A stretch of 64,000 bases of DNA from Methanobrevibacter millerae (GTDB lineage Archaea > Methanobacteriota > Methanobacteria > Methanobacteriales > Methanobacteriaceae): NCBI RefSeq assembly GCF_001477655.1, contig NZ_CP011266.1:1844001-1908000 (forward strand), written 5' to 3'. Numbering within the stretch: position 1 is the stretch's first letter; every line of letters begins with the position of its first letter. The notes under the pieces were generated by a model. That model did not search any database. It was not told where the DNA came from and saw only the letters and a program-made list of their open reading frames with translations. This document shows positions 62,871 through 64,000 of the stretch, piece after piece. The position numbers and the translations under genes are program-made.

Positions 62871-62972
62871 TTCCAAACACCTACTTAATTATATCTACAT
62901 TCATTATAATTTAAATAGTTTATCTAAAAATGATTAAAAAAAATAATTATTGAGGAGGTTAATTTATAAAAA

Positions 62973-63128
62973 TCACTTCTCCTCATTTTCAATCCACAAC
63001 ATCATAGCTTCTTCGATAGCTTTTGAATACCATCCGGTAGTGAACAACAACTTAGAAGAGGCTAATTTACGAAAATACATGTCAAGGTCATTATTGACCT
63101 TAATGGTAACTCTTCTATTTTTAGTCAT
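62973..63128 (-). CDS. Small ribbon-helix-helix-like DNA-binding protein
   Basis: A 51-aa gene read directly from the - strand; ATG 63126-63128, stop TGA 62973-62975. The protein begins MTKNRRVTIKVNNDLDMYFR and continues KLASSKLLFTTGWYSKAIEE. A beta strand RVTIKVNN followed by two helices is the ribbon-helix-helix layout (MetJ/Arc type). Such proteins bind operators as dimers and often repress their own gene. It lies next to the coiled-coil gene; no partner toxin gene is seen. Confidence 0.55.
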   Translation of the reverse strand: MTKNRRVTIKVNNDLDMYFRKLASSKLLFTTGWYSKAIEEAMMLWIENEEK

Positions 63129-63266
63129 GAATAATTATTATTTATCTTCTAGTAAATAAAGCATACAGTATCTTATGGACTTAATTTCATTTATTAATTA
63201 TAATAATTATATTAAAAAGTTAAATTGGCCAAAATTAAAACATTTTGAATATACTTTTTAGGTAGA

Positions 63267-63410
63267 TTAATTATCAAAAATCACCACCCCATTCAGCAAT
63301 TTATTCCGTATCTTCCAACAATAAAATTCCCACATGCCCAATGAAATCTCCGGCCGATTAATCCCACAGACAAATTCACACACAGGACACTTAAACAAAA
63401 GTCTTGTCAT
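63267..63410 (-). CDS. Possible 47-aa cysteine-motif protein
   Basis: On the - strand, ATG 63408-63410 opens a 47-codon frame ending TAA 63267-63269. It reads MTRLLFKCPVCEFVCGINRP, then EISLGMWEFYCWKIRN, ending KLLNGVVIFDN. The CPVCEFVC part is a CxxCxxxC motif that could bind zinc. The local base content is higher in G+C than the flanks. A weak TATA-like AAATATAAC lies just upstream and no ribosome binding site is seen. It could be a real small protein or a gene fragment. Confidence 0.35.
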   Translation of the reverse strand: MTRLLFKCPVCEFVCGINRPEISLGMWEFYCWKIRNKLLNGVVIFDN

Positions 63411-63456: not shown

Positions 63457-63466
63457 ATTTATATAT
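63457..63466 (+). promoter_or_regulatory. TATA box of candidate RNA copy 1
   Basis: ATTTATATAT is a strong archaeal TATA box. The expected start near 63484-63488 falls just before the first hairpin of candidate RNA copy 1. Confidence 0.5.
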
Positions 63467-63485
63467 GAGAAAAACATAAGTATTA

Positions 63486-63600
63486 TACGATATGAAATAA
63501 AATTCATGTCTACAATGAACATCAGTCAACCATTTTATAATCTCCAATTGTTAGTTCATTGCACTTAAAATGCGAAGTAGATAAAATTCTACTTCACTCC
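63486..63600 (+). ncRNA. Candidate structured RNA, copy 1
   Basis: Three hairpins can be read in order on the + strand. Hairpin 1 is GATATG (63489-63494) with CATGTC (63505-63510). Hairpin 2 is CAATGAAC (63513-63520) with GTTCATTG (63554-63561), an 8-bp stem. Hairpin 3 is GAAGTAGA (63574-63581) with TCTACTTC (63588-63595). Shared blocks with copy 2 are ACGATATG, AATTCAT, CAATGAACATCA and ATCTCC. A CCCTCCCCTTTT tract follows. No protein frame is conserved. I do not recognise the family. It lies about 375 bp before copy 2. Confidence 0.55.
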
Positions 63601-63816
63601 CCCTCCCCTTTTATAAACACATCGAAATCCATCATTAAAATATGAAAATATTTACTTATTTAAATTTAATTAATTATATACATATGATCCACATATTTTA
63701 TAATAAATCAACATCAAAAATCAAATAATTTAATAAAAAACACAAAATATACATAATTGAATTAAAACATAGTACAAATTAACCTCAAACATAAATTTTA
63801 ATTCATTATAGGAAAA

Positions 63817-63825
63817 ATTTATATA
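63817..63825 (+). promoter_or_regulatory. TATA box of candidate RNA copy 2
   Basis: ATTTATATA is a strong archaeal TATA match. A second TATA-like stretch (CTATATATAC, 63829-63838) has the same distance to hairpin 1 as in copy 1, so either may be used. Confidence 0.45.
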
Positions 63826-63854
63826 AAACTATATATACTATTAAAACATATTAA

Positions 63855-63970
63855 AATACGATATGTTTTAAAATTCATATCAATGAACATCAAAAAGATT
63901 AAATTATTATCTCCGAAATTTGTTCATAATACAACCAGTATCGTAGATTGAAATATATCTACGATTACTT
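63855..63970 (+). ncRNA. Candidate structured RNA, copy 2
   Basis: It has the same order of elements as copy 1. Hairpin 1 is GATATG (63860-63865) with CATATC (63876-63881). Hairpin 2 is ATGAAC (63883-63888) with GTTCAT (63922-63927). Hairpin 3 is ATCGTAGAT (63940-63948) with ATCTACGAT (63957-63965). The hairpin 3 stem has a wholly different sequence from copy 1 but is kept as a stem. In hairpin 1, a U-A pair here is a U-G pair in copy 1. These changes support a folded RNA read on the + strand. Confidence 0.55.
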
Positions 63971-64000
63971 CCCTAAAAAGATTAAACATCATCCAAAATG

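Follow-up and report, generated by a model that had tools for sequence, protein, structure and literature searches.

Tandem putative small RNAs of Methanobrevibacter with a loop complementary to the fdhA translation start

In this study, a tandem pair of three-hairpin RNAs, about 130 nt per copy and each with its own promoter, was found on the + strand within positions 63457-63970 of the window, which is the whole 64-kb stretch of Methanobrevibacter millerae SM9 DNA that was analysed. It is highly likely that the two are sibling trans-acting sRNAs and that RNAs of the copy 1 type mask the ribosome-binding site (RBS) of fdhA and thereby repress FdhA synthesis. Methanogens of this genus thus very probably control formate use by a previously undescribed regulatory RNA. 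As read from the sequence, each copy comprises an archaeal promoter and, in order, a hairpin at the 5' end, a second one displaying an anti-Shine-Dalgarno (anti-SD) loop and a terminator-like 3' hairpin, which in copy 1 is followed by ACTCCCCCTCCCCTTTT (Table 1). An earlier sequence-only reading had detected the tandem RNA and missed its likely function, the hairpin-2 loop being antisense to the fdhA translation start.

The repeated blocks and TATA boxes described in that reading were recovered as direct repeats (63485-63510 and 63856-63881, 85% identity over 26 nt), a repeated CAATGAACATCA starting at 63513 and 63881, and a TATA box about 27 nt 5' of each copy. The next gene downstream is dph5 (TIGR00522, 332 bits), which lies on the opposite strand in convergent orientation and terminates just past copy 2. 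The only tRNA and SRP genes present in the window sit away from the RNA copies. Upstream of the pair lies a separate 37-nt repeat of 73% identity (62940-62976 and 63248-63284), overlapping the 3' ends of two short ORFs on the - strand: one encodes 51 aa (62973-63128), the other 47 aa with a Cys pair (63267-63410).

Table 1 Features of the two RNA copies in the window
Feature	Position	Strand	Basis or remark
Copy 1 TATA box, TTTATATA	63458-63465	+	A-rich BRE-like sequence precedes; same spacing before every homologous copy
sRNA copy 1 (fdhA-directed), predicted transcript	63485-63613	+	Ends approximate
Copy 1 covariance-model match	63485-63605	+	109.8 bits
Copy 1 hairpin 1, 8 bp	63489-63510	+	Folding
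Copy 1 hairpin 2, stem CAATGAAC/GTTCATTG, displays antisense loop	63513-63561	+	Folding
Copy 1 antisense segment	63526-63547	+	Exact complement of fdhA SD/start region, G000:C1:2382885-2382906
Copy 1 hairpin 3, terminator-like	63574-63595	+	Folding
Copy 1 U-run	63609-63612	+	Read from sequence
Copy 2 TATA box, TATATATA	63830-63837	+	Read from sequence
sRNA copy 2, diverged sibling	63856-63975	+	Covariance-model match, 62.8 bits
Copy 2 hairpin 1	63860-63881	+	Folding
Copy 2 hairpin 2, loop TTAAATTATTATCTCCGA at 63899-63916	63883-63927	+	Folding
Copy 2 hairpin 3, stem unlike copy 1, fully paired	63937-63969	+	Folding

The three hairpins drawn earlier for each copy are also the predicted + strand folds of both (MFE -26.4 kcal/mol, z -5.6 for copy 1; MFE -23.4 kcal/mol, z -4.0 for copy 2), and the opposite strands fold less stably (z -3.6 and -1.35, respectively). 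The U-A to U-G change reported in hairpin 1 is present, and the hairpin-3 stems, GAAGTAGA/TCTACTTC in copy 1 and ATCGTAGAT/ATCTACGAT in copy 2, are indeed different in sequence and fully paired in both. Many hairpin-3 stems occur across the homologues, with complete replacement in copy 2 of the window and in copy 2 of genome G009; this 3' hairpin is terminator-like, with a C/U-rich tail after it. Hairpin 1, with a minimum of 5 bp, was found in 88 of 89 copies, and 87 of them have hairpin 3 with a minimum of 6 bp. The selection on + strand structure proposed in the sequence-only reading is in agreement with the better folding of these 89 homologues in the sense than in the antisense orientation (mean z -4.5 and -2.6). 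On a 40-sequence alignment, 96.3% of the cells pair, compared with 37-50% in slid controls. Two-sided changes were seen in just 8 cells of this alignment because most of the RNA sequence is conserved, and the predicted structure is supported mainly by conservation, by the retained pairing of hairpin-3 stems that were replaced and by hairpin-1 changes to G-U on one side.

Using a covariance model (R1) built on 40 sequences, the RNA was found in 57 of 67 Methanobrevibacter species genomes and in 34 of the 37 good-quality ones, so the two copies lie far beyond chance; as the match in G021 is the fdhA site itself, a stricter count is 56 of 67. Each genome carries 1-3 copies, usually in tandem and mostly adjoining dph5. 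The exact hairpin-1 pattern occurs, in 12 genomes of the window's clade, at this locus only. The model also detected three divergent relatives with altered anti-SD loops or stems (G078:C14, G084:C5 and G085:C48), two of which are extra copies on other contigs. Matches in a DNA search with copy 1 were confined to the same genus, and outside the genus, over the whole order, the covariance model gave three weak matches alone (E 4e-4 to 5e-3), none of them convincing. In addition, the exact 22-letter antisense pattern was found in 65 stretches among 84,980 named genomes, 64 of which are labelled Methanobrevibacter. The 65th belongs to a MAG labelled Cellulosilyticum (JAGAVZ010000229.1); its sequence is of the Methanobrevibacter type, and it is probably a misbinned contig. 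Rfam 15 returned no match at gathering score and nothing relevant at E<=5 over either copy, consistent with the RNA having been called unrecognised, and we found no regulatory RNA described for Methanobrevibacter or its fdh in the open-access papers searched. By sequence, structure and host, the RNA is a new family of predicted sRNAs, and its mode of action, if confirmed, would be of a known kind with few archaeal precedents.

The 22-nt antisense segment that copy 1 displays in its hairpin-2 loop (63526-63547) has an exact second match in almost all genomes of the genus; in M. millerae SM9, this match is 475 kb from the RNA locus. The complementary strand there reads TTTTGGAGATTATAAAATGGTTGA, which spans the Shine-Dalgarno sequence, spacer and first three codons of fdhA, ATG included. 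This gene encodes a formate dehydrogenase alpha subunit of 721 aa (TIGR01591 Fdh-alpha, 914 bits) and directly follows fdhC as the second gene of fdhC-fdhA. Complementarity to the RBS, start codon and codons 2-3 extends over about 20-26 nt in copy 1 and most homologues, and the 15-mer CATTTTATAATCTCC is present in 63 of 67 genomes, compared with none for a reversed control. In 32 genomes, the duplex of the RNA with the fdhA leader of the same genome reaches -29.2 to -41.9 kcal/mol. The value for M. millerae SM9 is -35.0 kcal/mol, against a best of -26.1 and a median of -11.1 for a background of 268 candidate start regions taken from the window. A hairpin (AAGAAGCATTATTGCTTCTT) with a T-rich run after it is also located between fdhC and fdhA (G000:C1:2382919-2382959, about 2420-2460 of locus L033, - strand); its GCTTCTT side is found before fdhA in many genomes, and it could be a leaky terminator or a processing site within the operon.

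The fdhA genes were gathered by protein search, independently of the leader sequence. In genomes that carry the sRNA, conservation of the fdhA leader is 86-100% from position -16 to +7, but only 51-81% at positions -17 to -28 and 62% at the wobble positions of codons 3 and 4, so it stops at the limits of the complementarity; codon 2 is GTT in 35 of 37. The moaE leaders, used as a control, drift freely over the same species. On the RNA side, 66 of 89 copies retain the fdhA antisense with no more than 3 changes over 20 letters, and it is exact in 35. Loop substitutions are concentrated at the two letters opposite the junction of the start codon and codon 2 (33 of 41), and 24 of the 41 retain G-U pairing. 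True compensatory RNA-mRNA pairs do not occur because the fdhA target is almost invariant. Taken as a prediction from these comparisons, the RNA-fdhA pairing is strongly supported.

The canonical fdhA leader is found in 33 of 34 RNA-bearing genomes, G010 having one extra base, and in 4 of 7 genomes without detected RNA, with G020, G029 and G031 differing (one-sided hypergeometric probability about 0.01, computed by hand and uncorrected for kinship and incomplete assemblies). The four with a canonical leader and no RNA detected (G021, G024, G069 and G075) are incomplete assemblies, and G022 was counted through the leader of a named record taken as the same genome. These counts omit G005, G008, G013, G027 and G067, in which fdhA is in another operon, where it follows a gene for a ferredoxin-like Fe-S protein, not fdhC, and has an unrelated RBS. 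The RNAs of G008 and G013 no longer pair with fdhA (-12.8 and -7.5), in line with a loss of selection. G027 and G067, both 82% complete drafts, are exceptions to the co-occurrence: the antisense is kept, and the only fdhA found is in another operon, with an unmatched leader. G085 combines a canonical fdhA leader with a weakly pairing RNA (-23.7).

As for the mechanism, two features of trans-encoded RBS-masking sRNAs are found here at the sequence level, namely a predicted independent unit located away from its target and conserved complementarity to an initiation region. We infer from this that the sRNA is transcribed, binds in the cell and represses fdhA. It would pair with the fdhC-fdhA mRNA at the fdhA start, and since both the SD and the AUG would be covered, 30S loading at fdhA would be blocked, as proposed for sRNA162 of Methanosarcina mazei, and formate dehydrogenase would be repressed. 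As fdhA is second in the operon, the effect would be discoordinate, that is, the FdhC transporter would be made and the FdhA enzyme held back.

Copy 2 retains the promoter, hairpins 1-3 and the ATCTCC anti-SD, and most of the fdhA pairing is lost (-18.7 versus -35.0 kcal/mol for copy 1). It would be a duplicated sibling whose promoter and scaffold were kept and whose loop drifted off fdhA, and it may be in decay, retain weak redundancy or have been retargeted. When its 18-nt loop was searched against M. millerae SM9 with up to 3 mismatches, there was no start-region site among the matches inspected, and the best match was inside a transporter gene. Second copies within the same clade have loops that differ from one another, which speaks against a single new target common to that clade, and a target search for the altered loops of G004, G010 and G077 gave matches at background level. 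With copy 2 and these related loops as candidate retargeted copies, we also consider, only tentatively, that the tandem copies form a retargetable sRNA array in which the promoter, 5' hairpin and terminator are fixed, the anti-RBS loop is exchangeable and duplicates are turned to other mRNAs.

Other explanations of the locus can be weighed against repression of fdhA alone. The one with the most substance, although we regard it as rather unlikely, is that the anti-SD loop controls several targets, which besides fdhA would include a conserved membrane protein of 253 aa and molybdopterin genes. In M. millerae SM9 and many relatives, the 15-mer occurs where the gene for this protein starts, and single genomes carry it at mobB, moaE or mop. 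However, the moaE leaders are not conserved, leader matches at the 253-aa gene are limited to about half of the genomes viewed, and the duplex with this gene in M. millerae SM9 (-26.0) does not surpass the best background start (-26.1). The 253-aa gene (G000:C1:929842-930600) is present in 59 of 67 species, its start region shares GGAGATTATAAAATG with fdhA in about half of the genomes viewed, and its product has no Pfam or NCBIfam match. The exact fdhA-start 15-mer at mobB, moaE and mop/TOBE is seen in few genomes, and a molybdenum regulon suggested by these sites was set aside as the moaE leader is not conserved.

Far less probable is a positive action, in which pairing of the RNA at the fdhA start shields the fdhC-fdhA mRNA against cleavage or unfolds an inhibitory structure. 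A weak fold around the SD is predicted for the fdhA leader, and archaeal sRNA154 is described as stabilizing some targets, an action proposed for nif mRNAs, with its other loop masking an RBS (PMC5867862); however, the duplex predicted here spans the SD, spacer and AUG, which would exclude the ribosome. That a fragment of fdhA was captured inside a non-regulatory structured RNA would agree with a single short segment alone matching fdhA, but it is very improbable given that the antisense is kept in 66 of 89 copies genus-wide, together with the promoter and fold, and that the match does not run beyond the functional start region. The least credible reading makes the RNA a modification guide, of the C/D-box or another type, or a leader of the downstream gene. 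TGATGA-like letters occur in hairpin 2 of some copies, yet conserved C/D boxes are absent from the 40 aligned copies, no family matches over the copies in Rfam, and the complement is an mRNA start. The sequence-only reading had left a small RNA gene and a leader element side by side. The former holds, with its own promoter, three hairpins, a terminator-like end, genus-wide + strand conservation and no Rfam match, and the latter, including a cis-acting riboswitch, fails because dph5 is convergent and runs towards the RNA.

The predicted repression of fdhA by RBS masking resembles known systems in several respects. In M. mazei, trans-acting sRNA162 was proposed from binding and mutant data to mask the RBS of a second cistron; like our predicted RNA, it pairs with the start of that cistron as well as its RBS, is proposed to make operon expression discoordinate and is restricted to one genus (PMC3510493). 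However, genus, fold and target differ, and sRNA162 pairs via a variable single-stranded linker at -17.6 kcal/mol (PMC3510493), whereas the RNA of Methanobrevibacter would pair 20-26 nt through a conserved loop, with energies of -29 to -42 kcal/mol that come from a different program and are not strictly comparable. Two further M. mazei sRNAs act in central metabolism, as here: sRNA154 has an anti-RBS loop and sRNA41 masks RBSs inside polycistronic mRNAs, but their targets (glnA2, ACDS) and host are different, and tandem siblings are not described for them in the available part of the source (PMC5867862). Our RNA is set apart from sRNA162, sRNA154 and sRNA41 by their descriptions, not by their sequences. 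Archaeal precedents for RBS masking are few, and those found are all in Methanosarcina. Multicopy bacterial sRNAs such as LhrC and NgncR_162/163 pair with the SD regions of mRNAs. Several near-identical sRNA genes per genome, a similarly multicopy arrangement, are present for Listeria LhrC (PMC4132741) and Neisseria NgncR_162/163 (PMC9973317). Unlike these bacterial sRNAs with many targets, the RNA of Methanobrevibacter is predicted to pair almost perfectly with one conserved archaeal target.

Methanobrevibacter is the principal genus of methanogens in the rumen and human gut, and formate dehydrogenase decides the ability of the cell to live on formate besides hydrogen. Reports on the expression of rumen formate dehydrogenase are conflicting (PMC10658910). 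If the RNA controls FdhA translation, fdh transcript counts would not predict the enzyme level. With one predicted main target and a comparative set of about 57 species, the system would also be a clean model for archaeal RBS masking.
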